Positions 7,168 to 21,878 of a stretch of DNA of 29,661 nucleotides are shown here, in pieces; the first letter of the stretch is position 1, and each line of letters opens with the position of its first letter. Below the pieces are notes generated by a model. That model worked only from the letters and a program-made list of their open reading frames with translations. It was not told the origin of the DNA and made no database searches. Source of the DNA: a virus. The stretch spans positions 1-29,661 of the IMG/VR virus record IMGVR_UViG_3300035698_005342. One strand, written 5' to 3'. Made by a program: the position numbers and the translations under genes.

Positions 7168-7340
7168 TGGGACAAAATATAAGTGCTTCACAGGATGGTG
7201 GTATTAATATTGGTGTTTCGCAGACAGACCCAGTAGTGGTGGGAGGCTGGACGCATATAATAAATACCATATCTGCAGCCAATCTGTCTAAAGTCAATAC
7301 TATCGCAAAAGCTAATATAGCAAAAATAAATACAATTTAA
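7167..7340 (+). CDS. Small virion-associated protein with KINTI-type repeats
   Basis: A 57-residue protein beginning on the stop codon of the beta-helix gene (TAATG). The N-terminal half is Gly/Ser-rich. The C-terminal half is a degenerate repeat, 'LSKVNTIAKANIAKINTI', in which units of about eight residues (x-I/V-N-T-I-A-K-A-N) recur. Similar short repeats are seen in tail or fibre proteins of many phages. It closes the decoration/fibre block just before the promoter of the sugar cassette. Its function is probably structural, perhaps as a small companion of the beta-helix protein. Confidence 0.6.
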   Translation: MGQNISASQDGGINIGVSQTDPVVVGGWTHIINTISAANLSKVNTIAKANIAKINTI

Positions 7341-7341
7341 C

Positions 7342-7370
7342 TTGACAAGCGGGCATTTTTAGTGTATACT
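7342..7370 (+). promoter_or_regulatory. Sigma70-type promoter of glycan cassette
   Basis: A perfect -35 box TTGACA (7342-7347), a 17-base spacer and a -10 box TATACT (7365-7370, one mismatch to TATAAT). It sits in one of the few real intergenic gaps, 40 bases before the first glycosyltransferase gene. Transcription would begin near 7377. Confidence 0.75.
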
Positions 7371-7383
7371 TAAGGGGAATTTG

Positions 7384-7413
7384 ATGAAACGTAAAACACG
7401 GAGGGCACAGTGA
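7384..7413 (+). CDS. Nine-codon leader ORF
   Basis: ATG at 7384 opens a nine-residue basic peptide (MKRKTRRAQ) ending in a TGA that overlaps the GTG start of the big glycosyltransferase (GTGA). The SD of that gene (GGAGGG, 7400-7405) lies inside this mini-ORF. It could couple or tune translation of the first cassette gene; because the predicted transcript start is only about 7 bases upstream, it may be poorly translated or a chance ORF. Confidence 0.3.
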   Translation: MKRKTRRAQ

Positions 7414-10400
7414 AACCACGAATACTCATAGTCAGCGATTCCCCATTATTGCATACTGGAATGGGCGTTGCACATTACCAGATTGCAGGACGTCTTTACA
7501 ACATGGGTAAGTATGAAATTGCATCATTTGGTTGGTTCTCGCATACGGCAGAATCACGTGGCATGAAATGGGAGTTGCCATGGAAGCAATACACAACAAG
7601 CAATCATAGCAAACCATATGGACACCCTGAAAATTACCCTAAAGACCCTGCTTGGGGAACAAGCCCTGCAACAAAGATTATAAACGAATTTCAGCCAAAT
7701 GTAGTTATACTTATAGCAGACCATTGGATGGGCGACTACTGGTATGATATGCCAGAAAGAGATAAGTTCAAGCTTATACATGAATTCCCAATAGATGGAG
7801 CGCCAGTTCCTTCTGACTGGGTAAAAAACATCAAGCGAGCAGACCTTCCTATTGTGATGACTAGATTTGCAGAAAAAGCCATACACGATAGAGACCCATA
7901 TTGTACGCTCGAAGTTAATCCTAGGGGTCTTGATGTTGGCGTGTTTACTCCTCAGCATTTTAGTAGACCAAAGGACTTAATTCGCAAACAGTTTATGCCA
8001 GAGGCTGTGGGACGTTTTGTAGTAGGAGTTTTTGATAGATACCAAGATAGAAAGCAGATTGGAAGGGCAGTAGAGGGATTTGCTAAGTTCATGAAGAGTG
8101 GTCGACATGACAATTGCGACCTTTATCTGCATATGGACTTCAATGACTCTGCTAGTATTCAACAAGGAAAGACTCTCGTTGGAAGAGATGGAATCCTGAA
8201 GCGTTATAACATAGATGGAAAAGTTCTTTTTAAGAAAGGAATGACAGTAGAGCGTGGTGTTGATGTGAGTGAGCTAGCTGCGCTATATAACTGTTGTGAT
8301 GTTAAGCTCTCGGCATCACAAGGTGAAGGATTTGGACTGACAACTACCGAGGCAATGGCATGTGGAGTTCCTTGCGTAGCAACCAACTATACATCATTTC
8401 CTGAGTTCTTTGCTGATGGAAGAGGACTTCTTGCTGACGTAAAGACAACTATTACTGGAATGTATAATGTAGAGCGTGCGCTTGTCGATACTGAACATAT
8501 ATCTGAACTGTTGGAGAAGTTGTATCGTTCGCCCCAATTACGTCTACAAATTGGGAGAAAAGCTGCAGAGTGGGCGCAAACTCTTGATTGGAATTCAAAC
8601 ATTCAAAACTGGGACAATTACATACAACGTGTTTTAAAGGGTACACAATATAGAATAATAGAGAAAAGAAGAGATAAGAAGCCTGAACAGATAGAGAAAA
8701 ACGTCAACATTCAAGGTGCCGTATACGAAAATACAGGTTTTTCTATAGTTACAAGAAATTTAGCACTTGCTCTAGATAGACAGGGTGTAGATGTTAGCGT
8801 AGAGCCAAGAGTTCCAGAGCTTGGTAAGACGTTTAATGTTGAGCCCAAACTGTCAGAGCTTGTAAATAAGGGCAAAAATAAAGTTTTTGAGATTATCAAT
8901 CACATGGGAGATGAACAGGTTAAGCGTCTTGCTGAAAGCGATGCTCTATACAGAATAGCGTATTTTCCATGGGAACTGTCAAACATAAAAAACTCATGGG
9001 TTGATGCTCTCAACAGAGATGCGGATGCAGTATGGTGTAACTCTAAGTTCACTGCAGATATATACAAGAACGCTGGAGTGCAAGAAGATAAGATAGCTGT
9101 AATACCTAATGGCGTGTGCTTACCACGACTAACAGAAGAAGAAATAAAGGAAGTTAAGCGTGACGAAAGATATACCTTCTTGATGGTTGGCAATCTTGGA
9201 GACATACGAAAGAACACTAAGACTCTTATTCAGGCATACATGAACACGTTTACGTCTGATGATGACGTGAAACTCGTGCTAAAGTCTCAACCAGGTCACT
9301 TAAATAGCGACCCAACGTCTAATATAGAGTTTTTATCGCGTGGCTTAAAGAATCCACCTGCAGTAGACGTTATACACGCAAATTTAAGCGACAGAGAGCT
9401 TGCAGAGCTGTTCTACAAGTCTGACTGCTATGTAACAACGTCTCACGCAGAGGGGTTTTGTCAACCAATACTCGAAGCTTGTTCTAGGGGGATTCCAGTC
9501 ATAGCTCCTGCATATGGTGGGTATTTAGATTTTGCAACACAGGGAATGTTCTTTGGGGTAATGTCAAAGCTTGAAGATGCGTCAGAATCTCCTGTATACA
9601 ATACCAATGCACAATGGGTGTACGTTGATTATGGTGAGCTGTGCAAGACGATGAAAGAAGTCTTTAATGAGAAAATAAGACCCGATGGTGTAAGCTGTGT
9701 TGAATCTTTTACATGGAAAAACTCAGCAACAAAGGCTTTGTCTGAAATGGGCAAAATTGTAGAACGTTGCTCAAGTCCAAGACTTAAGGTGTTTTATAGA
9801 AACTTTGCTACTAATTTATGGAATAACGACAATAGAAGCAATCTTATAAGATATGCGCCATCTGATGTTATTTTCGTTAATGATATTAATGACGCTGATT
9901 TGCAAATTGTAGACATAACGCGCTTGAGTGACAGAAACAACATAAAGCACAAGAACTATATAGCGTTGTTCCATTGTTTTGGAGAATGGTCAGAGGAAAA
10001 ACATGAAGACTATCTTGACATCTTCAAGAACGCAGTAATGGTATACTCTCATCTCGACTTAAGCGAGTTTGGAGATAAGATAAATTATACAAGAGGGCCA
10101 TGGGGCGTAGATGAAGATATTTTCTATCGCTCTTCTGGATATGGTAAACAGTTTATGATAGTTACGACTGGTACAATAGCTGAAACTGAAGGAATATCAG
10201 AATGTGTCGCAGCGTGCGATGCTCTAGGCGGAAGATTAATGCATATAGGCAGAAATCTTGGATACAAAAATAAAAGCTACGAAAATGCAGTCAATCTAAC
10301 GCAAACACAGATGCAGACAATGTACAATTCTAGCTTTTTCGTTAATGGCATGCGTCGTGTCGAAGGGTTTGAAAAGCCAGTCATTGAAGGTGCGCTGTGT

Positions 10401-10637
10401 GGTGCAAGACCAATATGCTTCGATACTCCACTGTTTAGACATTGGTATAAAGACATACCAGTGTATGTAGAAGAAGCTGAGTTTAATGTTACTGCAAGCA
10501 ATATCGTAGATAGATTAAGAGAGAAATACAGACCCATAACAGATGATGAGATTAGTTATCTCAAGAAAAAGTTTTCTTGGGTAAGAGTTGCGAAGAATTT
10601 CTGGGAACATGCAATGAAATGTGAGGAGAGTAAATAA
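7410..10637 (+). CDS. Triple-domain GT-B glycosyltransferase
   Basis: The protein has 1075 residues and contains three glycosyltransferase-like modules. Module 1 (about 1-415) is GT4-like, starting 'ILIVSDSPLLHTGMGV', with an E-x7-E motif at E306/E314 inside 'GEGFGLTTTEAMACG'. Module 2 (about 430-790) is also GT4-like, with 'HAEGFCQPILEACSRG' and E681/E689. Module 3 (about 795-1075) is more divergent but keeps E985/E993 in 'VEGFEKPVIEGALCGARP'. The E-x7-E pair binds the sugar-nucleotide donor in GT4 enzymes, so all three could be active and add successive sugars. The GTG start is supported by GGAGGG 4 bases upstream. It is the first gene behind the cassette promoter. There is no membrane segment, so it is probably cytoplasmic. 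Confidence 0.8.
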   Translation: MKPRILIVSDSPLLHTGMGVAHYQIAGRLYNMGKYEIASFGWFSHTAESRGMKWELPWKQYTTSNHSKPYGHPENYPKDPAWGTSPATKIINEFQPNVVILIADHWMGDYWYDMPERDKFKLIHEFPIDGAPVPSDWVKNIKRADLPIVMTRFAEKAIHDRDPYCTLEVNPRGLDVGVFTPQHFSRPKDLIRKQFMPEAVGRFVVGVFDRYQDRKQIGRAVEGFAKFMKSGRHDNCDLYLHMDFNDSASIQQGKTLVGRDGILKRYNIDGKVLFKKGMTVERGVDVSELAALYNCCDVKLSASQGEGFGLTTTEAMACGVPCVATNYTSFPEFFADGRGLLADVKTTITGMYNVERALVDTEHISELLEKLYRSPQLRLQIGRKAAEWAQTLDWNSNIQNWDNYIQRVLKGTQYRIIEKRRDKKPEQIEKNVNIQGAVYENTGFSIVTRNLALALDRQGVDVSVEPRVPELGKTFNVEPKLSELVNKGKNKVFEIINHMGDEQVKRLAESDALYRIAYFPWELSNIKNSWVDALNRDADAVWCNSKFTADIYKNAGVQEDKIAVIPNGVCLPRLTEEEIKEVKRDERYTFLMVGNLGDIRKNTKTLIQAYMNTFTSDDDVKLVLKSQPGHLNSDPTSNIEFLSRGLKNPPAVDVIHANLSDRELAELFYKSDCYVTTSHAEGFCQPILEACSRGIPVIAPAYGGYLDFATQGMFFGVMSKLEDASESPVYNTNAQWVYVDYGELCKTMKEVFNEKIRPDGVSCVESFTWKNSATKALSEMGKIVERCSSPRLKVFYRNFATNLWNNDNRSNLIRYAPSDVIFVNDINDADLQIVDITRLSDRNNIKHKNYIALFHCFGEWSEEKHEDYLDIFKNAVMVYSHLDLSEFGDKINYTRGPWGVDEDIFYRSSGYGKQFMIVTTGTIAETEGISECVAACDALGGRLMHIGRNLGYKNKSYENAVNLTQTQMQTMYNSSFFVNGMRRVEGFEKPVIEGALCGARPICFDTPLFRHWYKDIPVYVEEAEFNVTASNIVDRLREKYRPITDDEISYLKKKFSWVRVAKNFWEHAMKCEESK

Positions 10638-11698
10638 TGGGCAATTTAACTACATGGGCGTCAGACAAAAGCTTTGCGTTTCTTTCTCCATATAATACGC
10701 CTAGAGGAGGAAAAAACTTTGAGATAATTAATGGAATAACTGGAGTTCCATATACGTTCAAAGAAGAAGGCGCTGATTATTACTGGTATCATGATATTAA
10801 AAATCTCCCTCATGGAGAGCTTGTTGAGATATTCAATAAATATGACTATTGGATATATCCTGTTTTTCCAGAATACTTTGACATGCTGATTAGCATAAGA
10901 GATGAGTATAAAGGTAAGGTCATAGGTGTGACTGACATACAGACTCATGTACTAAGTTATTGGCCATTAAAAGATGTAGCTCTATTCGTTCAGGCGATAA
11001 ACTGTTACGACGCTGTGATGTCAACCAACGCAGATGAGGTTGAAACGTTTCGAGGGTGTCTAAAGGACAAGAATAAAATAGCATACACTGGTTGGTCGAT
11101 GTATCCAGAGAAGATACACAGCGACTATTATAAGACCAAGAACGAGAGAGACAAAAATCTAATAAGTGTTGGGATATCAAATCCTGGTGACTTCAATAGA
11201 GACCTAATGACGAACTTAACAGCGTATAACAGGTTGAAAGAGAAGAATCCAGACATTAAAGGCTTTATGTATTATGTCACTCCTAATAAAATTGTTGGGT
11301 TGAAGAAGGTAATTAACTCGATGGGTGTACGTGACTTTTCGCTCATAACAGAGCTTCCATATAAACGTGCGCTTGAGTATCTGGCAAAGTCATATATCGC
11401 CATACATCTTTATACATTTAAAGTTGTTGGTAGGTTGGCTCAAGATTGTGCTGCGCTTGGGATACCAATGGTTGGAACTATAGCAAATCTGCCAAATAGA
11501 GTATGCTTTACTAAGTGTAGCGTTATGGATTATGACATAAATACATCTGTTGAGATTGCAGACAGGCTTCTCAACGACGATAGTTTCTGGATGGATGTAT
11601 CTGAGAATGCAAAAGATAGAGCGTATAAGTTTTATGGGCTAGATGCTACAAGAGAGAGAATTTTTAAGCTGCTTACAGATTGTGGAATCATATCATGA
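10637..11698 (+). CDS. GT-B-like glycosyltransferase, motif-poor
   Basis: The protein has 353 residues. The N-terminal half carries unusual aromatic-rich strands ('YDYWIYPVFPEYFDMLISI'). The C-terminal half resembles the donor-binding domain of GT4 enzymes, with 'LITELPYKRALEYLAKSYIA' followed by 'DCAALGIPMVGT', the place where an E-x7-E motif normally sits. The first glutamate is not recognisable (the segment reads K-V-V-G-R-L-A-Q-D), so it may use a different mechanism or act as a partner of the other transferases. It begins on the stop codon of the triple-domain enzyme and ends overlapping the next gene by ATGA, so it is part of one operon. Confidence 0.65.
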   Translation: MGNLTTWASDKSFAFLSPYNTPRGGKNFEIINGITGVPYTFKEEGADYYWYHDIKNLPHGELVEIFNKYDYWIYPVFPEYFDMLISIRDEYKGKVIGVTDIQTHVLSYWPLKDVALFVQAINCYDAVMSTNADEVETFRGCLKDKNKIAYTGWSMYPEKIHSDYYKTKNERDKNLISVGISNPGDFNRDLMTNLTAYNRLKEKNPDIKGFMYYVTPNKIVGLKKVINSMGVRDFSLITELPYKRALEYLAKSYIAIHLYTFKVVGRLAQDCAALGIPMVGTIANLPNRVCFTKCSVMDYDINTSVEIADRLLNDDSFWMDVSENAKDRAYKFYGLDATRERIFKLLTDCGIIS

Positions 11699-12729
11699 AT
11701 AGTGTGCTATTGCGTGGCGAGGTTGGAGATAATCAGTCTTGTGGTATTGTAAATATTGGATTAACTGTAGGATTTGAAGCAAACTTTGTTGAAGTATCTG
11801 TTGACCCTAAGTCAATGTATGCGTCAGCGCCTAAATTTGTGCTTGAAAGAGTGCATCGAAAGCTAGACATAGATACGTTGATAGACCATGGACTTCCACA
11901 TCAGATGAATGGTTTAGGAAAGAATAGACCATGGAGAAGAGTTGCTCTTAACTTTTGGGATTCAGACTTATTCACAAAAGAGGCAGCAGACTGCTTGAAT
12001 GAGTTTGCTGACCACGTGATAGTACATAGCGAATTTACTAAAAAAGCCGCACTTGACGCTGGTGTAGAAAAGCATATAGCAGTTGGTGCTGCAGGTATAT
12101 TCAAGGAAAACTATAAGTTTCCAGACAGAAGAAATAGAGACAAGTTTAGATTCGTATTTACTGGCGTAGCGCAGGGGCGCAAGGGTACGCAAGAGGCAAT
12201 TTCAGCATTTGAGGAAGTATTGGCAGATAAGGACGATGTTGAGCTAATAGTAAAAAGCAACTCTTGGGGTAAGGTGGATGAGTACACAGTTAAAGCAAAG
12301 AACGTTATACGCATATATGAAGAATTTCCTCGTCAGACCTTTATTGATTTCATGGCTAGTTGTGACTGTTTCGTGTGTCCAACTAAAGGCGACTCGTTTA
12401 TGTTTCCAGGTCTTGAGGCTATGGCTTGTGGTCTGCCACTTATCATTACCAACTTTGGTGGACCAACCCAATACTGTAATGATGACACTGGGTATCCTAT
12501 TAAGTACTCATTGGTTGATTGTGGTTACCTGGCTGGTCACCAAGCTGAACCAGATTTTGCTCATTTAGCAGAAACAATACTGCACGTATATAATAACAGG
12601 GAAGAAGCTTACGCTAAAGGCGACTATGGCTGGCAGTGGGGTCAAATGCATTGGGATTGGAGAGACGATACGAAACGTTTAATTAACCAGTTGGAGGTCA
12701 CCGATGAGCAGATTATTAGCAGGAGATGA
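11695..12729 (+). CDS. GT4-like glycosyltransferase
   Basis: I place the start at 11695, where ATG overlaps the previous TGA (ATGA), rather than at an earlier in-frame ATG at 11680; this gives 344 residues. It shows typical GT4 features: 'HVIVHSEFTKKAAL' in the N-terminal domain, 'FRFVFTGVAQGRKGTQEAI' at the start of the C-terminal domain, and 'GDSFMFPGLEAMACGLPLII', where the first glutamate of E-x7-E is replaced by Asp. It probably transfers a sugar from a nucleotide donor in the cytoplasm. The last 26 bases overlap the following methyltransferase gene. Confidence 0.75.
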   Translation: MNSVLLRGEVGDNQSCGIVNIGLTVGFEANFVEVSVDPKSMYASAPKFVLERVHRKLDIDTLIDHGLPHQMNGLGKNRPWRRVALNFWDSDLFTKEAADCLNEFADHVIVHSEFTKKAALDAGVEKHIAVGAAGIFKENYKFPDRRNRDKFRFVFTGVAQGRKGTQEAISAFEEVLADKDDVELIVKSNSWGKVDEYTVKAKNVIRIYEEFPRQTFIDFMASCDCFVCPTKGDSFMFPGLEAMACGLPLIITNFGGPTQYCNDDTGYPIKYSLVDCGYLAGHQAEPDFAHLAETILHVYNNREEAYAKGDYGWQWGQMHWDWRDDTKRLINQLEVTDEQIISRR

Positions 12730-13291
12730 TGGAACGGAATTCAATTACGACGCTAGTGGAAGAATTAAACTTGCATTTGGAACGGGTCATATCGACATGC
12801 ATAAACAAGGATACATCAATGTTGATATACGCTCCTTTCCTCATATTGACGTACAGTGTGATTTAAGCAAGAAACTGCCATTAAAAGATGACTATGCTGA
12901 CGAGATATTGGCACATTCGTTGCTTGAACACTTTCCAATGGGCGACTATGACAATATAGCAAGACCATATGCAAATACAATAAGAATTCTCAAAGAATGG
13001 ATTAGAGTTCTCAAGCCAGAAGGGGTATTGATATTAAAGGTTCCAAACATAAAAGGTCTGGCGAGTTGTTACTTAAACAACAAAATTGAGATATTTGAGT
13101 TTTTTAATTATCTATATGGTGGTCAAGATTATCCTGAAAATACACACTTGGCTGGGTTTGACACAAAAACTATGCAATTCTGTCTGCACATAGCCGGGTT
13201 TTCACATATAGACTTCAAGCATGCGCATAATGATGATGGAAATTTTGATGAACTTTCAGATTGGGAAATGAGGGTGGTGGCTGAAAAATGA
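12704..13291 (+). CDS. SAM-dependent methyltransferase (type 11-like)
   Basis: A 195-residue class I methyltransferase. It has 'KLAFGTGHIDM' (motif I, a little altered from the usual GxGxG), 'YINVDIRSFPHIDVQCDLSK' (motif II region with the acidic SAM-ribose contact), 'ADEILAHSLLEHF' and 'EWIRVLKPEGVLILKVPN' (post-motif strand), followed by a C-terminal beta strand. This is the layout of small Methyltransf_11-type enzymes that modify sugars or lipids in surface-glycan clusters. GGAGG lies just upstream of the ATG. It differs from the other three methyltransferases of the cassette and could act on a different position of the glycan. Confidence 0.75.
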   Translation: MSRLLAGDDGTEFNYDASGRIKLAFGTGHIDMHKQGYINVDIRSFPHIDVQCDLSKKLPLKDDYADEILAHSLLEHFPMGDYDNIARPYANTIRILKEWIRVLKPEGVLILKVPNIKGLASCYLNNKIEIFEFFNYLYGGQDYPENTHLAGFDTKTMQFCLHIAGFSHIDFKHAHNDDGNFDELSDWEMRVVAEK

Positions 13292-13812
13292 GACCTGCAT
13301 TAAATAGGGCAAGAGACATACTCAGAGATAAGGTTACAAATGAATTTAGTGACAACGTTATTGGAGCTGAAATAGGAGTTTTAAGAGGTGAAAATGCTAG
13401 AGAGATTCTTAGAGAATGGAGTCAAGTATCGCATCTCTATTTAATGGAAATCAAACCTATGGATAGCAAAAGCTCTATGATTGCTGTTGAAAATTTACGT
13501 GAATGGCAAAAGAGAACTGCATGGATAATTGGAGATTCTTCTGTGACAGGACTGAATTTTAATAACAATTATTTTGATTTCGTATACATAGATGGTGGTC
13601 ATACACACGACCCTGTGTCTGCTGACATAAAAACATATTGGGGAAAAGTAAAGTCTGGTGGAGTGTTGTGTGGACATGATTACAATGTTGAGTGGGAGGA
13701 CCCACGAGAAGGAGTTGTTAAGGCTGTCGATGAATTTGTTGCAAGATACAATTTGTATCTATGGACAAAAACTGATGGAAGTTCAAGCGATTGGGTGGTA
13801 GTGAAACCATGA
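13288..13812 (+). CDS. SAM-dependent methyltransferase (Mtf_24-like), copy 1
   Basis: A 174-residue protein, the first of three paralogues that all begin M-R-P. It shows 'IGAEIGVLRGENAREIL' (SAM-binding loop), 'LYLMEI' (motif II) and 'FDFVYIDGGHTHDPVSADI' with D102, then 'GGVLCGHDY'. This is the compact Methyltransf_24/CmcI-like pattern, whose members methylate hydroxyl groups of sugars and antibiotics and often need a metal ion held by Asp/His residues such as those in 'DGGH' and 'GHD'. It starts on the previous stop (ATGA) and ends overlapping the next copy. Confidence 0.75.
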   Translation: MRPALNRARDILRDKVTNEFSDNVIGAEIGVLRGENAREILREWSQVSHLYLMEIKPMDSKSSMIAVENLREWQKRTAWIIGDSSVTGLNFNNNYFDFVYIDGGHTHDPVSADIKTYWGKVKSGGVLCGHDYNVEWEDPREGVVKAVDEFVARYNLYLWTKTDGSSSDWVVVKP

Positions 13813-14354
13813 GACCCTGCTTTGTAGAATTTCAAAGAAGCAAATATGCAAATATTGTTGGAGCTGAAATTGGCGTGCATAGAGGTATTCACGCAATGGA
13901 TATAGTACAAAATTTGCCAAATCTTAAGAAGCTGTACTTGGTTGACCCTTACGTTATTGGTGGAGCATTTGATGGCGATAGAAAGAAAGAAAAAGAAGAA
14001 GCGCGTACTAAGCTCAATGAATTTGCAGATAAAAGACAATGGTTGTATGAAACATCTGAAGATGCCTCTAGAACTTTTGATGATAACTACTTTGATTTTG
14101 TTTATATAGATGGAGACCATTCATATGATGCTGTTTTACTTGACTTACGCTTGTGGTGGAGTAAAATTAAACATAATGGCATGATAGCTGGTCACGATTT
14201 TGACATTAAACACCACCCAGGAGTTCATAGAGCTGTATTGGATTTTGTTAATGGAACGAACTGTACTTTAAATATTCATTGTTATTTTCCACGTCCACAC
14301 AAGAAGCAGTCTACGAGTAGCGATTGGTGGATTTTTAAAGATAGCGAGGCGTGA
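13809..14354 (+). CDS. SAM-dependent methyltransferase (Mtf_24-like), copy 2
   Basis: I choose ATG 13809, overlapping the previous TGA, because it gives the same M-R-P beginning as the two paralogues; an ATG at 13791 would add six unrelated residues. The protein has 181 residues. It carries 'VGAEIGVHRGIHAMDIV', 'LYLVDPY' and 'FDFVYIDGDHSYDAVLLDL' with D101, then 'GMIAGHDFD'. A Lys/Glu-rich insertion lies around residues 57-70. It is probably a sugar O-methyltransferase. It arose by duplication of copy 1 or a common ancestor, and the adjacency suggests two methyl groups on the same glycan or on different sugars. Confidence 0.75.
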   Translation: MRPCFVEFQRSKYANIVGAEIGVHRGIHAMDIVQNLPNLKKLYLVDPYVIGGAFDGDRKKEKEEARTKLNEFADKRQWLYETSEDASRTFDDNYFDFVYIDGDHSYDAVLLDLRLWWSKIKHNGMIAGHDFDIKHHPGVHRAVLDFVNGTNCTLNIHCYFPRPHKKQSTSSDWWIFKDSEA

Positions 14355-14986
14355 TGTTGCGTGCCATATTATTCGACATAGATGGCGTTCTTGTTGACGC
14401 AGATAGGTTGCATTTTGATTGTTTTGCACGAGCATTATCAACTAAAGGCATACATCAATCGTGGGAAGAACATAATAAGTTCTACAAGGGAATGTCAACG
14501 CGCACAAGGCTTTCTCTAATTGGTGGCATGTGTGGATTGACGCAGAAAGAACAAGACAAGTTGTGGGAGTTAAAGCAAGAGTATTCAAATACTACTTTTG
14601 ATAAAATTACACCTAATAAAGAAAAAATAGACATGCTTTCAACTCTACGCAAGAAATATAAGCTTGTTGCGTGTTCAAATGCGAACAGAGACAACGCTAA
14701 ACACATGCTTGTTGCATCTGGGTGTATATCATTTCTTGAATTCTTTTTGAGCAGTAGCGATGTAGAGCATGACAAGCCCGACCCTGAGATATACACAACG
14801 GCACTAAACAGACTTGGTTTTTCACCAAATGAATGTTTGGTTGTAGAGGATTCTGCATTAGGTATGGAAGCTGCAAATAATGCTGGATGTCATTTGTGCG
14901 CAGTAGAAGAATATTCTGATGTAACATTGAAACGCTTAAACGATACAATACGCTCCATAGAGAGAAACAATGATAATGAGAAATGA
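14354..14986 (+). CDS. HAD-family phosphatase/phosphomutase-like hydrolase
   Basis: The protein has 210 residues from ATG 14354 (GTG at 14351 is an alternative; GAGG upstream suits either). It has all HAD motifs: 'FDIDGVLVD' with nucleophile D8 and D10, the motif II segment 'ACSNAN', K141 in 'HDKPDPEIY', and E165-D166 in 'VVEDSALGMEAANNAGC'. With the cap helices after motif I this is the beta-phosphoglucomutase-like subclass. In this cassette it could remove a phosphate from a sugar phosphate (the step GmhB performs in heptose pathways) or isomerise one. GmhB itself belongs to a different HAD subclass, so that equivalence is only a guess. Confidence 0.8.
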   Translation: MLRAILFDIDGVLVDADRLHFDCFARALSTKGIHQSWEEHNKFYKGMSTRTRLSLIGGMCGLTQKEQDKLWELKQEYSNTTFDKITPNKEKIDMLSTLRKKYKLVACSNANRDNAKHMLVASGCISFLEFFLSSSDVEHDKPDPEIYTTALNRLGFSPNECLVVEDSALGMEAANNAGCHLCAVEEYSDVTLKRLNDTIRSIERNNDNEK

Positions 14987-14992
14987 TAGATT

Positions 14993-15796
14993 ATGATAGG
15001 AGTAGTATTTGTTAATTACACTGATGAGCAATATATTGCAGGTCGCCAGGCAATGTCACTGCGCTGTCTTAAATCGTTAATCAAAAGTACTGAAAATAAT
15101 GATTGCAGAATTGTAGTAGTAGACAATGGTGGAAAAGGTGAAACTGGTCTTCTTAGAGAAGAATTTTGCAACCTACTTAATGACAAGAAAATTCATGCGT
15201 ATATTTCATTTGATGGCAATAGGGGTCTTGGGTATGCAAGAAATCTTGGCAAGACAATCCTAGACGAAGAATGTGCTTATGTCAAGATATACCCTCCTGA
15301 TTATTATGTCTTTACAGATAATGACTTTTTCTATAGACAAGACTGGCTTGATGTTGCCGTTAAGGTGTATGAAAGATTTAAGTGTCTATGCCCAGTTCTT
15401 TCATTCTATAATAATTCGTCAGGAAGTCATATTCCAAGAGGAATATTTACACATTCAACATCCAATGCTTATCAGATTGGATTGAGTGGTTCAGCTCCTG
15501 GTGGATGTTGGATGATGGATGACAATGCAACGAAGATATTTGAAAAACTTCCAACAAATAAACGTTGTGGCAACGAAGATTGGCACGTAATATACGCGAT
15601 GCAAGAGAAAAAGAAAAAGTTCTTAGTTATGGAAGGGCTTGTGAGGCATGTTGGTCTAGGGTATTCTATGTGGCTTGGTGAACTCCCAACATACAAAGCA
15701 CACAAACGACACATAGACGAAGTTAGCGACAAGTACGGTCTGATTTTAGATGCTGATGGTAATGATGTTGAAGAAACTACAAAAAATATAAAGTAA
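14993..15796 (+). CDS. GT2-like glycosyltransferase, copy 1
   Basis: A 267-residue GT-A fold enzyme. It starts 'MIGVVFVNYTDEQYIAGRQA', with 'RIVVVDNGG' (nucleotide-binding strand) and 'GNRGLGYARN' (GT2 donor loop), a metal-binding D-x-D equivalent 'FTDNDFFYRQDW' (D109-N-D111), and 'GGCWMMDD' later, with a final 'NEDWHVIYAMQEKKKKFLVM' containing the acidic E-D pair that usually acts as catalytic base. No membrane segment is present. It is the first of three paralogues (16354, 17687). It probably transfers a sugar to a growing glycan in the cytoplasm. Confidence 0.75.
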   Translation: MIGVVFVNYTDEQYIAGRQAMSLRCLKSLIKSTENNDCRIVVVDNGGKGETGLLREEFCNLLNDKKIHAYISFDGNRGLGYARNLGKTILDEECAYVKIYPPDYYVFTDNDFFYRQDWLDVAVKVYERFKCLCPVLSFYNNSSGSHIPRGIFTHSTSNAYQIGLSGSAPGGCWMMDDNATKIFEKLPTNKRCGNEDWHVIYAMQEKKKKFLVMEGLVRHVGLGYSMWLGELPTYKAHKRHIDEVSDKYGLILDADGNDVEETTKNIK

Positions 15797-15811
15797 CTAC
15801 CAGGAGACGCA

Positions 15812-16357
15812 ATGCCACTAATTCTGAGAAATGATGATGTTACGATGTCGTCAAATTTGGATGATATTCTAAAAATGTATGCAATTATTAGAGAAAAACT
15901 TCCAAATGCTGAGATACGGTCGTCAGTTACTGTATTTTCAAAAGGAAATCAGGGACATGTTTACCCCATAGAGCCAATGAAGCATATGCCATTATCGTAT
16001 CTTTATGATGTTGATAGAGCGTGGGTGAATTATCCTAATTTAGGTGATAAAATAGTGTCGCATGGGTTATTTCACATAGACCACACAAAGCTTAGTTATT
16101 CCGCAATGGAGATGTCTATTGTTTGTAGTTGTCGCTATCTACATACAAGCGCATTTACTCCTCCTTATGGATACGAAAATGATATGATGAATACAATTTG
16201 CAAGTTGCACAATATTAAACTTGAACATTCTTACCCTTTAGATGGATGGAAGAGTATAGAATTTAATAAATTTGATGAAAAGCACGAGAACTGGTATTTT
16301 CATTCTTGGAGATTTACTCCTAAGACGTTTGAAAAAGCATTGGAGGGTAACATATGA
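15812..16357 (+). CDS. Polysaccharide-deacetylase-like (NodB/DUF2334-type) protein
   Basis: A 181-residue protein with the short motifs of the CE4/NodB fold: 'LRNDDV' near the N-terminus (D8-D9, catalytic and metal Asp), 'SHGLFHIDH' (H84 and H88 as the metal-binding His pair, H91) and 'FTPPYG' (115-120, equivalent of the RxPY motif). Members hydrolyse N- or O-acetyl groups from sugars or act on related substrates. It is smaller than usual (often 200-260), so it could be a minimal or inactive version. An AGGAG sequence precedes the ATG. Placed between two GT2 genes, it most likely trims acetyl groups of the cassette's product or of the host polysaccharide. Confidence 0.6.
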   Translation: MPLILRNDDVTMSSNLDDILKMYAIIREKLPNAEIRSSVTVFSKGNQGHVYPIEPMKHMPLSYLYDVDRAWVNYPNLGDKIVSHGLFHIDHTKLSYSAMEMSIVCSCRYLHTSAFTPPYGYENDMMNTICKLHNIKLEHSYPLDGWKSIEFNKFDEKHENWYFHSWRFTPKTFEKALEGNI

Positions 16358-17139
16358 TAGGGGCTGTAATTACAGATTACGCAAGACCAGACCTTGCGAT
16401 AAGAAGCATAAACTCTTTCCTAAAAACAACTAAAGATGTTAATGTTAGATTAGTTGTTGTTGATTTGGGTAAAATAAAAGATATCCCAAGAAACAGACCA
16501 TTGAATGACTTTAATATTGAGGCAAACATGGAGCGCAATACAAAACGTTATGCAGATTTAGTCGCTAAAGGAGATATTCATTGCGTTATTTCGATTGATA
16601 GAAATATGGGAAAAAGTTATTGTTGCAATATTGGCGCGACGATGTTGAGAGAAGAGTGCAAATGTGAAGGTATGTCAGCGCCTGATTATTATTTATTCGC
16701 AGATAATGATATGCTCTATAGAGATGGCTGGTTAAAGCTTGGACTTGAAATGTATAATAAATATAGAGATACTTTTCCAATAATGTCGTTTCACAATAAT
16801 GGAGCACCAGACCACCAGCCAATTAGATACATTAATGATAAAGCTGTAGCGCCATTTAGACTATCCGCCAACCCATCAACTCCTGGGTTTGTGTATCTTA
16901 TGGACGAGGAGTTTTTTAAACAAATTGGTAAGTTTCCAACAAAAAAACAGATGGGCGATGATGACTACCACGTAATACACGTAGTTCAAGGTTTGAAAAA
17001 AGAGTTTTTGTTATTAGAAGGAGTTGCTGAACATATTGGATTTGGTCGCTCTGCGTGGCGGCTTGAAAAATCAAGTTGGGATTGTCACGATAGATACAAT
17101 AAAGAACTAAAAAAACAGTATGGACCAATAGAAGAATGA
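16354..17139 (+). CDS. GT2-like glycosyltransferase, copy 2
   Basis: A 261-residue paralogue of the GT2 enzyme at 14993, with the same order of features: 'MIGAVITDYARPDLAIRSI', 'VRLVVVDLG', a donor loop 'DRNMGKSYCCNIGATML', D117-N-D119 in 'FADNDMLYRDGW', and a C-terminal 'GDDDYHVIHVVQGLKKEFLL' acidic region. Its start overlaps the stop of the deacetylase-like gene (ATGA) and its stop overlaps the next methyltransferase, so translation is coupled. It probably adds one sugar; acceptor and donor cannot be read from the sequence. Confidence 0.75.
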   Translation: MIGAVITDYARPDLAIRSINSFLKTTKDVNVRLVVVDLGKIKDIPRNRPLNDFNIEANMERNTKRYADLVAKGDIHCVISIDRNMGKSYCCNIGATMLREECKCEGMSAPDYYLFADNDMLYRDGWLKLGLEMYNKYRDTFPIMSFHNNGAPDHQPIRYINDKAVAPFRLSANPSTPGFVYLMDEEFFKQIGKFPTKKQMGDDDYHVIHVVQGLKKEFLLLEGVAEHIGFGRSAWRLEKSSWDCHDRYNKELKKQYGPIEE

Positions 17140-17699
17140 GACCATCTTTAGAGATAGCTAAAAAGTATTTTAATGGTAAAAATGTTAAGTGTGCGGAAAT
17201 TGGTGTTGAAAAGGGAAACAATGCTGTTGATATTCTCAAAAACTTTCCAAACATTGAGACAATCTTATTGGTGGATAACTACAAAGGTAGAATGGACAAA
17301 TACAAGAAGACAAGTCTTGAAAAAATAAATGCGCTCAATCCTGGAGACACGATTAAGTGGTATTATCTCGATTCAAGCGAAGCAAGCAAGCTCGTAGAAG
17401 ATAGCTCATTAGACTTTGTATACATAGATGACGACCACTCTGAAGTAGGGGCGTACAGAAGCATGACTTCATGGTGGAAAAAGTTGAAAAATGGTGGAAT
17501 GTTATGTGGGCACGACTACATGATAGGTGGTAGAGCTCAAGGTGTTATAGCTGCAGTTGAAAAATTTAGAGTTGCGTTTGATGTACCAGTTAGTATACAT
17601 TCAGAGTACCACAGCAAGGATGATGGTCGTACAAGTTGGAGTGAAAGAATGGTAACACCGTTTTTGAGCGATTGGTGGATATATAAATGGACAAAATAG
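17136..17699 (+). CDS. SAM-dependent methyltransferase (Mtf_24-like), copy 3
   Basis: A 187-residue protein, the third M-R-P-beginning paralogue. It has 'CAEIGVEKGNNAVDIL' (SAM loop), 'ILLVDNYKG' (motif II), 'LDFVYIDDDHSEVGAYRSM' with D98 and 'GGMLCGHDYM'. Conserved Asp and His residues of the family are kept, so it should be active. It sits between two GT2 genes, repeating the methyltransferase-GT2 order found upstream, and ends inside the next gene (13-base overlap). Confidence 0.75.
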   Translation: MRPSLEIAKKYFNGKNVKCAEIGVEKGNNAVDILKNFPNIETILLVDNYKGRMDKYKKTSLEKINALNPGDTIKWYYLDSSEASKLVEDSSLDFVYIDDDHSEVGAYRSMTSWWKKLKNGGMLCGHDYMIGGRAQGVIAAVEKFRVAFDVPVSIHSEYHSKDDGRTSWSERMVTPFLSDWWIYKWTK

Positions 17700-18454
17700 G
17701 TGCAATACTCGTAAATTATGCTCGCCCTGATATGGGAATGAGAAGCATTAAATCGTTCTTAAGCACAACAAAGAATGACGATGTTAAGCTTGTTGTCGTA
17801 GATACAGGTACTCAGCCTAGTGATGAGTCTGAGCGTAGAACAAAAGAACTTATAGACCTTGTAGATAGTGGCGATATATTCTCTGTCGTATCGTTTGGAG
17901 ACAACCTTGGTAAGGGATATGCACTGAACATTGGAACTCAAATATTGAAAGAAAAATGTAAGTACCACAACATTGAAGAGCCAGACTATTACGTGCATCT
18001 CGACAATGATGTCATATTTAGAGACAATTGGCTGACTATAGCTATCAATCTTTTCAGAAAGTATAGCTCTGTGTACCCAATATTGTCTTTATACAGGGGT
18101 GGCTCTAACGCTCACAAGATACAGAAAGAGCTTTCAGATTCTGATGCTAAAGGATATCGTTTTAGCATAGTAGATTCATGTGAAGGTATGTGCTGGATAA
18201 TGCCACGATGGGCAGACGAATTAGTTGAAAAATCGCCTACTGAGATACCTATAAGTGGAATAGACTGGTTCGTTATCAATAAGCTCAAGAAGGATGGATA
18301 TACATTCTTAACGCTTGAAGGGCTAATCAAGCATATAGGTTTTAAACATTCCACACATAGAGGCGAGCTACAGAGCTGGTATAGACAATTGGAGTACGAT
18401 ACTGAAATAGAAAAATTATATGGGAAAATTGAGGAGGCACGCGATGAATGTTAG
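17687..18454 (+). CDS. GT2-like glycosyltransferase, copy 3
   Basis: A 255-residue GT-A enzyme, closest in layout to the copy at 16354. It has 'IGAILVNYARPDMGMRSI', 'VKLVVVDTG', 'GDNLGKGYALNIGTQIL', the D-x-D equivalent 'HLDNDVIFRDNW' (D106-N-D108) and a C-terminal 'IPISGIDWFVINKLKKDGY' with Asp as likely base. It overlaps both neighbours, as do most genes of the cassette. Confidence 0.75.
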   Translation: MDKIGAILVNYARPDMGMRSIKSFLSTTKNDDVKLVVVDTGTQPSDESERRTKELIDLVDSGDIFSVVSFGDNLGKGYALNIGTQILKEKCKYHNIEEPDYYVHLDNDVIFRDNWLTIAINLFRKYSSVYPILSLYRGGSNAHKIQKELSDSDAKGYRFSIVDSCEGMCWIMPRWADELVEKSPTEIPISGIDWFVINKLKKDGYTFLTLEGLIKHIGFKHSTHRGELQSWYRQLEYDTEIEKLYGKIEEARDEC

Positions 18455-18728
18455 GGCAGTTTTTATAGCAATTAGACCCGATGCGAAAGAGATAATGGCT
18501 CCATTCTATAGAGAACTAGCAATGAAACATGGAGATGTTATGGTGTTCAACAGTGGTCCAGTTTGTCAGGAAATAAAAGACAGAAACGTTGCCATAACAA
18601 ATGATACAGAAAAGGATGCTGATTTAATTAAAAGTTTTGGCTGTGGTTCTGTGTGTCTAACAAAGTCAACAGATTTAAGTATGGGTATTTCTGCAATAGA
18701 ACGTGAAGCTCAGAAGGGTGGTGCGTAA
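18444..18728 (+). CDS. Hypothetical 94-residue protein
   Basis: I place the start at ATG 18444 because GAGGAGG stands 6 bases upstream; an ATG at 18420 would read out of frame through the end of the GT2 gene. The product has 94 residues with an alternating beta/alpha pattern ('VRAVFIAIRPDAKEIMAPFY', 'GDVMVFNSG', 'GCGSVCLTKS'). It looks like a small Rossmann-type or truncated domain. It is not recognised. Being inside the cassette, it may be an accessory of the sugar-activation step. The stop overlaps the next ATG (TAATG). Confidence 0.5.
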   Translation: MNVRAVFIAIRPDAKEIMAPFYRELAMKHGDVMVFNSGPVCQEIKDRNVAITNDTEKDADLIKSFGCGSVCLTKSTDLSMGISAIEREAQKGGA

Positions 18729-19060
18729 TGCCAAGAGATTTTGAATGTCCACTATGTAAGGCTGAAAAGATAACAGAATGGTTCTATGACAGTTCATTGT
18801 TTTGGATTGCAAATTGTGCAACGTGTCAGGTTCCAATGGTTGTGTTGAAAGAACACAGAGCTGATGTAGAACGTTGGATTATAGATGAGATGATTCAAGT
18901 ATCTAAATCAATATTTGATATTGATAAATTTGATATAGATTTTGAGATGCGACAGATTAAAGGTCATTTTCATTTTCATCTACGCCCTAAGAAGATTGAG
19001 AAGGTGAATGATGAAGAAGAACGAGAAGAAGAAGAAAACGCTAAAAAGGTTGATGACTAA
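18728..19060 (+). CDS. HIT-like protein with zinc ribbon
   Basis: A 110-residue protein. It has a zinc-ribbon type pair C7-x2-C10 and C30-x2-C33, then 'VPMVVLKEH' (35-43), and a histidine triad H80-F-H82-F-H84-L at the site where HIT enzymes keep their catalytic H-phi-H-phi-H motif. HIT proteins hydrolyse or transfer nucleotide-phosphate bonds, including nucleotidyl groups on sugar phosphates. The protein is shorter than usual HIT proteins and ends in a highly acidic tail. Next to a nucleotidyltransferase gene it could act on a nucleotide sugar. Its family was judged from motifs only. Confidence 0.55.
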   Translation: MPRDFECPLCKAEKITEWFYDSSLFWIANCATCQVPMVVLKEHRADVERWIIDEMIQVSKSIFDIDKFDIDFEMRQIKGHFHFHLRPKKIEKVNDEEEREEEENAKKVDD

Positions 19061-19662
19061 TGCGCATCTTAGTTCTTGCAGGAGGAATAGGAACCCGATT
19101 AAAACCGCTAACTACATTTGTTCCCAAAGTAATGATGAGTGTTCACGGTCATCCATTTTTATACTATCTGGTAAAGGCATATCAAGGGCACGACCTTGTA
19201 TTGTCCGTGAATTACATGAAGGAGAGCGTAAAAAATTGGTGCCGACTTACCAAGACTTATTTAGAATTTGTTGAAGAGCCTGAGTTTATGGGGACTGGTG
19301 GAGCTATACGCATAGCAGAACCATTCATGTATGGTAGAAAGAAGTTCGCAGTTGTTAATGGCGATACATATATTGAGGAAGATATGAATAAAATCTTTAA
19401 GTCGCATAATTCTAATAAAGATATTGCGACAGTGGTGTACGCAAAAGATATGCTAGATAATAAAATGCGCAATTCAGGCGTTTATGTGTTTAGTCAAAAA
19501 ATATTTGATTATTTGCGAAAACCCAAAGTTTTTACTTTAGAGGATAAACTTGACTCGATTCCACACAAAATATATGAGAGCAAGAAGAAATATCTTGACA
19601 TTGGCACGTACAAAGGGCTCACATACGCAAAAACACATCTATTCAATGAACGAAAACGTTAG
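19060..19662 (+). CDS. Sugar-phosphate nucleotidyltransferase (HddC-like)
   Basis: The protein has 200 residues. The N-terminal 'LVLAGGIGTRLKPLT' is the nucleotide-binding loop of sugar nucleotidyltransferases, followed by 'VPKVMMSVHGHPFLYYLV', 'FMGTGGAIRIAEP' and 'FAVVNGDTYIEED' (about residues 92-105, the Asp for metal). This is the order in GDP-mannose pyrophosphorylase-like enzymes, including HddC, which makes GDP-D-glycero-D-manno-heptose. It is a little shorter than typical members (about 230). The next gene encodes an HddA-like kinase, which strengthens a heptose-activation reading. Substrate specificity (hexose or heptose, GTP, CTP or UTP) cannot be proven by eye. Confidence 0.75.
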   Translation: MRILVLAGGIGTRLKPLTTFVPKVMMSVHGHPFLYYLVKAYQGHDLVLSVNYMKESVKNWCRLTKTYLEFVEEPEFMGTGGAIRIAEPFMYGRKKFAVVNGDTYIEEDMNKIFKSHNSNKDIATVVYAKDMLDNKMRNSGVYVFSQKIFDYLRKPKVFTLEDKLDSIPHKIYESKKKYLDIGTYKGLTYAKTHLFNERKR

Positions 19663-19670
19663 GAAACGCA

Positions 19671-20702
19671 ATGAAAAGACTAATACGAAGCATGGCTCCA
19701 CTGAGATTAGGCCTTGGCGGTGGTTCGTCTGATTTAGCTCCCTTTGTAAGGCGTTATGGCGGAGAAGTATTAAATGCGACTATAAATAAATGCGTACACG
19801 CAACCTTGGTTCCAAACGATAGCGACCAAATATTGTTACGCTCAGAAGATTATGGAATAACGAGAGAATACGATAGCAGTAAAGCTCTCCCATACGACGA
19901 TGAGTTGGACTTGGTATGTGCTGTAATAAACAGAGTGAGAGGAACGAAAGAGTATAATGTTCCAAAAAGTGGATTTGATATCTACTTGCGTAGCGATGCC
20001 CCACCTGGTGCAGGACTTGGAACGTCATCTACTGTAGTTGTGGCAATACTTGGACTATTCAATGAGTGGTGCAACATACACATGGGGAACTACCAACTTG
20101 CGCATCTTGCTTGGGAGATTGAACGCGTTGATATGAAGATGGCTGGTGGCAAGCAAGACCAGTATAGCGCAGTATTTGGTGGGTTTAACTTGATGTATTT
20201 TCGACAAAACGATGAAGTATTAATCGTTCCACTTAAGGTTCCACGTTCAACGCTGCTTGAGTTGCAGAATAATTTGCTCTTAGTGTACTCTGGTAAGACT
20301 CATAAATCTGGGGAGATAATAATGTCTCAGACACCTAACTCACTTGAGAAATTCAACTGGATACTACACATAAAGAACATAGCTCAAGCAATGGTTGAAG
20401 ATTTACTAGCTAAAGACTTAGAGAACTTTGGAGAGCTATTGTCTATGGAGTGGCTGTATAAGAAACGTTTATCAAGCAAGACGAGTAATGAATATCTTGA
20501 AAAGCTTGCAAATGCAGCAATGGAGGCAGGTTCTATAGGTCTAAAGATTACGGGTGCTGGCGGTGGTGGTATGTTTCTCATTTACTGCCCTTGGAGGAAG
20601 AGAACACATATAGCAAATACGATGAAGAAACAAGGATGTAAGGTAATAGATTATTCATTTCGTGTTAAAGGACTGCAAACATGGAGCGTGAAATATGGGT
20701 GA
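19671..20702 (+). CDS. GHMP sugar kinase (HddA-like)
   Basis: The protein has 343 residues, normal for the family. It has the three GHMP motifs: 'APLRLGLGGGSSDLAPFV' near the N-terminus, the ATP loop 'APPGAGLGTSS' (110-120) and 'ITGAGGGGMF' (293 onward). The opening 'RSMAPLRLGLGGGSSDLAPF' with a following 'GGEVLNATI' is the arrangement of D-glycero-D-manno-heptose 7-phosphate kinase (HddA), which makes heptose 1,7-bisphosphate. Fucose or other sugar kinases of the same family are possible. It lies 8 bases after the nucleotidyltransferase gene. A GAAA/AGGA sequence precedes the ATG. It is the last enzyme gene of the cassette. Confidence 0.8.
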   Translation: MKRLIRSMAPLRLGLGGGSSDLAPFVRRYGGEVLNATINKCVHATLVPNDSDQILLRSEDYGITREYDSSKALPYDDELDLVCAVINRVRGTKEYNVPKSGFDIYLRSDAPPGAGLGTSSTVVVAILGLFNEWCNIHMGNYQLAHLAWEIERVDMKMAGGKQDQYSAVFGGFNLMYFRQNDEVLIVPLKVPRSTLLELQNNLLLVYSGKTHKSGEIIMSQTPNSLEKFNWILHIKNIAQAMVEDLLAKDLENFGELLSMEWLYKKRLSSKTSNEYLEKLANAAMEAGSIGLKITGAGGGGMFLIYCPWRKRTHIANTMKKQGCKVIDYSFRVKGLQTWSVKYG

Positions 20703-20877
20703 TAAAACACAGTATATAAAAGTTAGGCGTTGCTCAAAAAAAGATGCATGCCATTTTAAAAATGTTTGGTGGGACCCCAAACAATGTCTTGGCAAGTTTC
20801 ATATCTGGCACACTTGTCTCTATAAGGGCGTAGAAGAAAGAATAAAAAAGGTGAAAAAAGATGGCGCTGGGGATTAA
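20695..20877 (+). CDS. Cys-rich mini-protein
   Basis: A 60-residue basic protein with cysteines at 13, 19, 31 and 41 and histidines at 20, 36 and 39, likely a small zinc-binding fold. It is not recognised. The start lies inside the end of the sugar kinase gene, and the end overlaps the start of the HNH gene by 17 bases. It may belong to the cassette or travel with the endonuclease. Confidence 0.5.
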   Translation: MGDKTQYIKVRRCSKKDACHFKNVWWDPKQCLGKFHIWHTCLYKGVEERIKKVKKDGAGD

Positions 20878-21391
20878 AGGCTTCCAATTAGGTGAAAAAC
20901 ATTGTAACTGGAAGGGTGGAGTATCTCTTCCTCATCCATGCTTAGATTGTGGTAAGCCAATTCAAGCTAGGGCTACAAGATGTCGTGCTTGCAGAAAAAA
21001 ATACTATAGAGGTTCTAAGTGTTCTGCGTGGAGAGGTCGTCGCAATTCAATAGAAAGCCAAATTAGGTCACTGCCAGAGCATCGCTCGTGGAGAACGCTT
21101 GTCTTTGAAAGAGATAATTATACGTGCATGGATTGTGGTGTGCGTAGTGGTGTTGGTGTTAATGTCCACCTTGAGGCACATCATCGCACACCGTTGACGA
21201 AACTCTTGTCCAATTTTTTGCAAGAGTATAATCAATTTAGCATAATTGATGATATTAAAACATTGACGAGACTTGCAATGAATTATGCACCGTTTTGGGA
21301 TATCAATAATGGTAAGACATTATGTGGGAAATGTCATAGGGAAAAAGGTCTACATATGAAAATAAAACACAGAAACACTAAGGGGGCTTAA
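20861..21391 (+). CDS. HNH endonuclease
   Basis: A 176-residue protein. The N-terminal half has two Cys pairs ('CLDCG' and 'CRACR') that form a zinc ribbon. The nuclease core has 'RDNYTCMDCG', the central 'HLEAHHRTP' (H107-H108, catalytic His with its neighbour) and 'NNGKTLCGKCHREKGLH', i.e. paired CxxC plus HNH motif residues. This is the small free-standing phage HNH type, usually a homing nuclease that inserts between genes. It lies exactly at the border between the sugar cassette and the tail genes, where a mobile nuclease could have taken part in its insertion. Confidence 0.8.
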   Translation: MALGIKGFQLGEKHCNWKGGVSLPHPCLDCGKPIQARATRCRACRKKYYRGSKCSAWRGRRNSIESQIRSLPEHRSWRTLVFERDNYTCMDCGVRSGVGVNVHLEAHHRTPLTKLLSNFLQEYNQFSIIDDIKTLTRLAMNYAPFWDINNGKTLCGKCHREKGLHMKIKHRNTKGA

Positions 21392-21392: not shown

Positions 21393-21878
21393 ATGGCAGC
21401 GAGAACATATAAATATTGCACCGCAGATGATGATGTACGCGTCTTAATCGAAAAAGTAACTGATGCTGTAGTGTCTGATACAAGCGTCAACTATATGATA
21501 GACATAGCTTGCGACCTAATAGATGGTAAGTTGCATTATATGTACACTGTTCCATTTACGACGACACCACCAGTAGTGAAAACAATAGCAACACATCTAG
21601 CATCGTACTTTGTTTTAAGGAGAATATACTCCAAGACTAGAGGAGCTAAAGGCAATGATTGGATAGTAACATTTCGAGATTTTGCCGATGAGCTTGTACG
21701 TGGTCTTGTCGATGGCTCTATAACGCTATTAGATTCAGATGGAACGTCATTGTCGCCTAAGAGCGACTATGGAATGAAAACATCAACAAAAGACTATACC
21801 CCAATCTTTAACGATGGAGATGAGCTTAGTTGGGAAGTCGATGAAGATAAAGTAAAAGACAGCACGTCGGGAAGGTAG
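21393..21878 (+). CDS. Head-tail connector (DUF1320/gp36-like)
   Basis: A 161-residue protein, mostly helical at first ('YCTADDDVRVLIEKVTDAVV', then 'NYMIDIACDLIDGKLHYMY') with the pattern of head-tail adaptor proteins: an N-terminal 'Y-C-T-x-x-D-V' and a repeated helix pair 'VVKTIATHLASYFVLRRIYS' plus 'FADELVRGLVDGSI'. These proteins form a ring joining the portal vertex to the tail. It is followed by a tail terminator-like gene and the tail tube, the usual order. A GGGGG-like SD and ATG are good. Confidence 0.7.
   Translation: MAARTYKYCTADDDVRVLIEKVTDAVVSDTSVNYMIDIACDLIDGKLHYMYTVPFTTTPPVVKTIATHLASYFVLRRIYSKTRGAKGNDWIVTFRDFADELVRGLVDGSITLLDSDGTSLSPKSDYGMKTSTKDYTPIFNDGDELSWEVDEDKVKDSTSGR

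Follow-up and report, generated by a model that had tools for sequence, protein, structure and literature searches.

Phage-encoded glycosylation of virions is known for Corndog, Che8 and Myrna (PMC12363180, PMC12619734), and the same two papers credit Freeman et al. 2023 with reporting glycans on mycobacteriophage capsids and tail tubes. Corndog carries an O-methyltransferase gene and three glycosyltransferase (GT) genes between its portal and protease genes; these enzymes are absent from the virions themselves, and modification of the capsid was proposed (PMC4351075). Here, we analyze a 29.7-kb virus record, IMG/VR IMGVR_UViG_3300035698_005342 (positions 1 to 29,661, hereafter the window), a fragment of a tailed phage whose virion operon contains a cassette of sugar-related genes. 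The original prediction, made from the letters alone, considered the cassette an undescribed system, a description that the published examples, above all Corndog with its O-methyltransferase, no longer allow. We consider it probable, with some reserve, that the cassette serves to build, in the cytoplasm, a heptose-containing and O-methylated glycan on proteins of the virion.

Cassette layout and conservation

The block at 7410-20702 is real and sugar-related. It is filled by 16 consecutive open reading frames (ORFs) on the + strand, with spacings of -35 to +15 bp (Table 1). PHROG matches upstream, at 11-1975, identify the scaffold/protease C-terminus, a decoration protein and the major capsid protein (MCP), and those downstream, at 21393-27183, a gp6 connector, tail tube, tail completion and tape measure proteins. 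The ORFs, the domain, profile and fold searches and these flanking genes together bear out the predicted sixteen-gene sugar cassette inside the virion operon, and, as five other phages share this gene order, a chance arrangement is ruled out.

All relatives in this lineage are uncultured fragments. A search of phage records by DNA found no close relatives, and single-protein queries with GT3x and HddA, the outermost cassette genes, matched nothing in scans of viral contigs, while alignment-based queries did give matches. A capsid-protein scan detected MCP homologues in 11 other viral contigs (57-79% identity), four of which (our handles G002, G003, G006 and G011) reach far enough to show that the cassette follows head-accessory genes and precedes gp6. 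A fifth record, L035, found via GTB2, begins at GT3x and continues in unchanged order through gp6 and the tail tube gene. The block thus occupies the same location in all six spanning records, the window included, and each of them contains GT3x, GTB2, GT4b, an MT11-type methyltransferase, the nucleotidyltransferase (NTase) and HddA; HddA adjoins the gp6 region in every one of the 11 records that extend far enough upstream of gp6. A search for this gene order in other phages had been suggested with the original prediction, and it succeeded in five relatives.

Within this frame the interior varies. The span from GT3x to HddA ranges from 11.2 to 25.4 kb, and relatives carry additional Methyltransf_23, Methyltransf_11 and Methyltransf_31 proteins, a TylF-type methyltransferase, GT2 proteins, a fusion of GT2 and methyltransferase, a GXM-like methyltransferase fused to a GT8-like domain and, in G011, a ClpP-like gene. 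Among isolated phages the closest relative, judged by its capsid protein, is Rossellomorea phage phiT1 (31% identity). Its genes for scaffold, capsid, gp6, tail tube and tape measure follow the same order, but only 297 bp separate capsid from gp6; this interval is the empty site. Profiles of the MCP and GT3x matched none of 84,980 bacterial and archaeal genomes, so these phages are not seen there as prophages.

One rival reading is that unrelated sugar genes, sharing no common product, have gathered where insertions are tolerated, with HNH endonucleases as guides. The HNH gene at the window's junction, an HNH-like gene in G006 and intruders such as the ClpP-like gene would suit such an origin, which we nevertheless hold to be extremely improbable: GT3x, GTB2, GT4b, NTase and HddA recur in six of six records at 43-71% identity and in the same order, and the cassette closely resembles the virion genes in codon use (relative synonymous codon usage, r 0.956), so that it has probably been resident for a long time.

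Sugar-handling enzymes

Domain, profile and fold searches assign six of the sixteen genes to GTs. The three GT-B domains of GT3x each contain one EX7E motif (residues 306, 681 and 985), and the protein, which forms the left end of the conserved frame, has a 45-58% identical homologue at the same place in five relatives. GTB2 gives no family match in Pfam or NCBIfam; its AlphaFold (AF2) model (pLDDT 76.7, pTM 0.78) best matches GT4 enzymes (Foldseek, 3mbo BshA, E 3.7e-12, TM 0.68), and the modeled fold confirms it as a GT-B glycosyltransferase, with homologues of 48-70% identity in five relatives. GT4b has homologues of 43-71% identity in the same number of relatives. GT2a, GT2b and GT2c are paralogues that share 33-38% identity pairwise and a DND motif in each.

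Four further genes encode S-adenosylmethionine (SAM) methyltransferases, of which the three Methyltransf_24 proteins are again paralogues (MT24b is 33-36% identical to MT24a and MT24c). In the phage collection, the top match of MT24b (39%) is the O-methyltransferase of Lokiarchaeota virus WyrdV1, an Asgard archaeal virus (MZ666939.1:12683-13162). PHROG labels the MT24 proteins as 'DNA methyltransferase', and phage GTs are commonly DNA-directed (Pyle et al. 2024, as cited in PMC12619734), both of which would accord with GTs that decorate modified bases of the phage genome. We judge such DNA hypermodification most unlikely, since the cassette sits in the virion module, hypermodification has no known need for a D,D-heptose kinase, four methyltransferases and six GTs, and no thymidylate-synthase-like base-modifying enzyme was found in eight incomplete records. 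A Tet/JBP search likewise gave no match, but its positive controls were equally silent.

The remaining small proteins are less clear. An AF2 model of the 110-aa HIT-like protein (pLDDT 79.7) finds its best fold match in HIT protein 2oik (E 0.038, prob 1.00), and residues C7, C10, C30, C33, H43, H80 and H84 are invariant across six phages; the Pfam HIT model is silent, and the HIT identity is weakly supported. Domain searches find no known domain in the adjacent 102-aa protein, homologues of which (32-46%) adjoin the HIT-like gene in G006, L039 and L041. For the putative deacetylase, Pfam, NCBIfam, PHROGs, PDB and a directed Pfam search returned no match. From the enzyme list of the original prediction, the triple-domain GT, two GT-B proteins, three GT2, four methyltransferases, HAD phosphatase, nucleotidyltransferase and GHMP kinase therefore stand, the HIT-like protein keeps a weak place and the deacetylase is unconfirmed.

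The HIT-like and 102-aa proteins are hard to place in a glycan pathway, and every cassette enzyme is soluble, as would befit a soluble small molecule or storage glycan that, for example, diverts host sugar phosphates or blocks defense. So many GTs and methyltransferases, together with an interior that is exchanged between relatives, better fit an exposed, selected structure, and the cassette always lies within the virion operon, making a soluble product very unlikely in our view.

Table 1. Features of the window, with coordinates, strand and supporting evidence
Feature	Coordinates	Strand	Evidence or remark
Major capsid protein (MCP)	1025..1975	+	PHROG 1650 major head protein, 3.7e-14; virion-operon marker upstream of cassette
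Variable head-accessory genes	2032..7340	+	ORFs; possible virion proteins, putative glycan acceptors
Sigma-70-like promoter TTGACA-17-TATACT	7342..7370	+	Before GT3x; 11/12 consensus positions
GT3x, GT4-type glycosyltransferase with three GT-B domains	7410..10637	+	Pfam Glycos_transf_1 1.3e-31; PHROG 2170 6.5e-66
GTB2, divergent GT-B glycosyltransferase without EX7E	10637..11698	+	Fold match of predicted model
GT4b, GT4 glycosyltransferase, TTG start	11680..12729	+	Glycos_transf_1 5.6e-14
MT11, SAM methyltransferase	12704..13291	+	Methyltransf_11 3.6e-6; homologues in 5/5 relatives
MT24a, SAM methyltransferase	13288..13812	+	Methyltransf_24 1.6e-12
MT24b, SAM methyltransferase	13791..14354	+	Methyltransf_24 3.6e-16
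HAD sugar-phosphate phosphatase, beta-phosphoglucomutase-like	14351..14986	+	Pfam HAD_2 1.3e-31
GT2a, GT2 glycosyltransferase	14993..15796	+	Glycos_transf_2 1.4e-11; DND motif
Putative NodB-like deacetylase	15812..16357	+	By-eye motifs NDD, HGLFH, PPYG
GT2b, GT2 glycosyltransferase	16354..17139	+	Pfam 0.0098 alone; 33-38% to GT2a and GT2c
MT24c, SAM methyltransferase	17136..17699	+	Methyltransf_24 1.3e-10
GT2c, GT2 glycosyltransferase	17687..18454	+	Glycos_transf_2 5.5e-8; 47% homologue in L041
102-aa protein	18420..18728	+	ORF; relatives' homologues
HIT-like 110-aa protein	18728..19060	+	HFHFH and CxxC..CxxC motifs; fold match
HddC-like nucleotidyltransferase (NTase)	19060..19662	+	NTP_transferase 2.7e-17; predicted GDP-heptose synthesis
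HddA-like D-glycero-D-manno-heptose kinase (GHMP)	19671..20702	+	NCBIfam HddA 1.1e-81; right end of conserved frame
60-aa Cys-containing protein between HddA and gp6	20695..20877	+	Same-place homologues in relatives
HNH endonuclease at cassette/connector junction	20861..21391	+	PHROG 144 HNH, 1.9e-11
gp6-like head-tail connector	21393..21878	+	PHROG 195, 2.2e-11; first virion gene 3' of cassette
Tail tube protein	22399..23376	+	PHROG 290, 3e-50; virion-operon marker downstream of cassette

Predicted heptose pathway

The sugar itself is suggested by the right end of the cassette. HddA matches the NCBIfam HddA model over its full length (275 bits, cut-off 600), and its best PDB profile matches are the D,D-heptose kinases 3k85 and 4n3o (~1e-98); these profile matches identify the HddA-type C1 kinase of the GDP-D-glycero-D-manno-heptose pathway. 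The neighboring NTase has its best PDB profile matches in 6jq8 and 5xhw (8e-27), HddC-type enzymes of the 6-deoxy-D-mannoheptose pathway, and matches NCBIfam HddC at 1.8e-20 (73.5 bits, cut-off 300) with only its N-terminal half covered. The window contains neither the isomerase GmhA nor a GmhB-type phosphatase, its HAD protein being beta-phosphoglucomutase-like (TIGR02009, 3.2e-29, under the cut-off), and no HAD homologue was found in the relatives' cassettes. The HAD may stand in for GmhB, or the host may supply both GmhA and GmhB. The strongest support for the pathway is GmhA itself (PDB 1tk9, 3.6e-54) inside the G006 cassette, between GTB2 and GT4b. HddA, the HddC-like NTase and this GmhA in a relative's cassette support the earlier proposal of a methylated, possibly heptose-type glycan.

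Proposed glycan assembly and candidate acceptors

No transmembrane (TM) segment is predicted in any of the 16 cassette proteins of the window, and domain searches detect among them no flippase, polymerase, ABC export component, initiating phosphoglycosyltransferase or other membrane GT, in keeping with what had been noticed from the letters. This fits assembly on a cytoplasmic acceptor. In the scheme that we propose, HddA would phosphorylate C1 of the heptose, a phosphatase (host GmhB or the cassette HAD) would remove the C7 phosphate, and the HddC-like NTase would form GDP-heptose. Next, the soluble GT4/GT-B and GT2 enzymes would assemble an oligosaccharide directly on freshly synthesized proteins of the capsid, the tail or the accessory set while these are still in the cytoplasm; capping or decoration of it by as many as four SAM methyltransferases would take place before or during particle assembly. 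By analogy with O-antigen loci, the conserved ends (GT3x-GTB2-GT4b on the left, NTase-HddA on the right) may specify a common core and the exchangeable interior an outer, variable part. Such a glycan might shield the particle or alter adsorption.

Alternatively, the enzymes could remodel the host surface, making or modifying a host polysaccharide late in infection, through the host's lipid carrier, flippase and polymerase, for superinfection exclusion or progeny release. The gene content resembles that of heptose O-antigen and capsule loci, HddA, NTase and GmhA each match enzymes of capsule or lipopolysaccharide pathways best in structure searches, and cyanophage SynMITS9220M01 has a cluster with a kinase, nucleotidyltransferase, phosphoheptose isomerase, epimerases and a 'capsular polysaccharide biosynthesis' gene. 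In addition, a protein with three TM segments lies within the cassettes of G002, G003 and G011, leaving room for a membrane step there; the G006 cassette proteins have no TM segment. We nonetheless regard surface remodeling as unlikely, given the missing membrane machinery in the window, the cassette's fixed place, with head genes before it and the connector gene after it in all records, and the location of other phages' HddA clusters (the cyanophage and the large viral contigs L060 and L061) outside virion genes; late timing would, moreover, leave little time for a change of the surface.

Several points nevertheless weigh against a heptose-containing virion glycan. The scores of HddA, HddC and HAD are all under the NCBI equivalog cut-offs, which makes the exact sugar tentative, and among the window and the five relatives with a whole cassette, G006 alone carries GmhA. 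To these come the three-TM proteins just mentioned. Position and conservation argue for a role in the virion without proving it, as the place in the virion operon may merely reflect late expression, and both glycan and acceptor are predicted.

As to the acceptor, the supposedly Ser/Thr-rich beta proteins upstream of the cassette had been put forward as obvious candidates. Their Ser and Thr content does not bear this out: proteins encoded at 2032-7340 contain 10-22% S+T, compared with 17% in the MCP and 20% in the tail tube and decoration proteins, and we rejected Ser/Thr enrichment of the 2032-7167 products as acceptor evidence because they are no richer than these. A better candidate, judged by composition, is a 1649-aa mucin-like protein encoded inside the G011 sugar cassette, two genes upstream of NTase (L027:4071-9020, - strand), with SASPSASPSVS repeats over hundreds of residues, 34% S+T and no Pfam match. 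More tentatively, the cassette could act as a virion 'serotype locus', in which a conserved core frame and an exchangeable interior yield a phage-specific, methylated, D-manno-heptose-containing virion glycan, carried in one member by the mucin-like Ser/Pro-repeat protein.

If virion glycosylation is indeed the function, particles of this lineage would wear a complex, variable sugar coat that the phages make with enzymes of their own, including a dedicated route to heptose, and phage virion glycosylation would reach beyond the mycobacteriophage examples, with their few genes, to an almost complete locus for glycan assembly. It would also suggest that diversity in antigens or receptors is selected for on phage particles, as it is in bacterial O-antigens, and offer soluble GTs and methyltransferases for which protein may be the direct substrate.

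Flanking genes and other observations

A single promoter had been placed before the cassette. The strong TTGACA-17-TATACT element exists, being the top match within 2000-21999, but four relatives have no comparable match; it is found in the window only, and we rejected it as a lineage-wide feature. Rfam and tRNA scans gave no matches. The head-accessory region includes a beta-rich 440-aa protein (5845-7167) and a small TM protein (2981-3211), and its genes g4, g5, g9 and g10 have homologues in relatives. One gene there, listed at 3659-4033, is longer: its stop-to-stop frame covers 3329-4033 and aligns from residue 2 with a G003 protein beginning MSSVVIRGGDGNRYPALV. The aligned start codon is ATA (3392), preceded by AGGAGG at 3381-3386, and an AUA start or a lost ATG is possible for this gene (3392-4033).

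On the other side, the 60-aa Cys-containing protein has 45-62% identical counterparts in the corresponding position of G002, G003, L039 and L041. The HNH endonuclease that follows is absent from most relatives and is probably a homing intruder; G006 has a different HNH-like gene at the same cassette/gp6 junction (L025:17475-18149). The gp6-like connector is 28% identical to gp55 of phiT1, which adjoins the phiT1 capsid gene, and the tail tube protein is conserved at 59-77% identity in most viral contigs found. Among the tail genes, 28358-28837 encodes a protein with a transglutaminase-like GDCEDFAWLAYEVLKKQGY motif and no match in a PHROG search. Two G006 sugar genes lie outside the cassette: a Methyltransf_24 relative (L024:13271-13924, 41% to MT24c) directly before the scaffold/protease gene, and, upstream of the terminase, a match to PHROG 540 'nucleotide-sugar epimerase' (L024:6801-7823).

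Comparison with known systems

The window resembles Corndog, Che8 and Myrna in its phage-encoded GTs, and Corndog additionally in having a methyltransferase inside the virion module. It differs in scale and site, with 16 mostly sugar-related genes between capsid and gp6 as opposed to Corndog's four between portal and protease. Heptose genes are not mentioned for the mycobacteriophage systems in the available text, whereas the window has HddA and an HddC-like NTase; conversely, the glycan has been shown for mycobacteriophages, while the present system is known at the gene level. No mycobacteriophage appears among the tblastn matches of GT3x, GTB2, GT2c, MT11 and MT24b, a comparison of these five proteins at BLAST level.

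Smaller sugar-gene sets occupy comparable places in other phages. Pontimonas phage phiPsal1 has a GT4 followed by a methyltransferase and a GT2 between MCP and neck genes, Microcystis phage Mae-JY09 a GT4 between MCP and head-tail adaptor (both GT4 proteins 26% identical to GT3x domain 1), and Synechococcus phage S-CBS4 a GT4 (24% to the same domain) and a methyltransferase between portal and head genes. Unlike the window, these phages have one to three sugar genes and a single-domain GT4, with neither kinase nor nucleotidyltransferase.

In capsule and S-layer loci, the GDP-D-glycero-D-manno-heptose pathway comprises GmhA-HddA-GmhB-HddC, of which HddA and HddC-like proteins are shared here and GmhA in G006; the window differs in scoring under equivalog cut-offs and in having no GmhA, GmhB or export genes. 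L060 (10001-14621) and L061 (10001-12261) carry HddA, GmhA and HddC consecutively, and L060 continues with GmhB-like and dehydratase-like genes, a near-complete GDP-(6-deoxy)-heptose pathway outside a virion operon. These two contigs and SynMITS9220M01 share with the window phage-borne HddA-like kinase, isomerase and nucleotidyltransferase genes, but theirs lie outside the virion operon and include epimerases or dehydratases, and their HddA is only 30-38% identical. As far as records and papers show, virion glycosylation is thus already known, and what is new here is its scale, the O-antigen-like layout and a heptose route within the virion operon.

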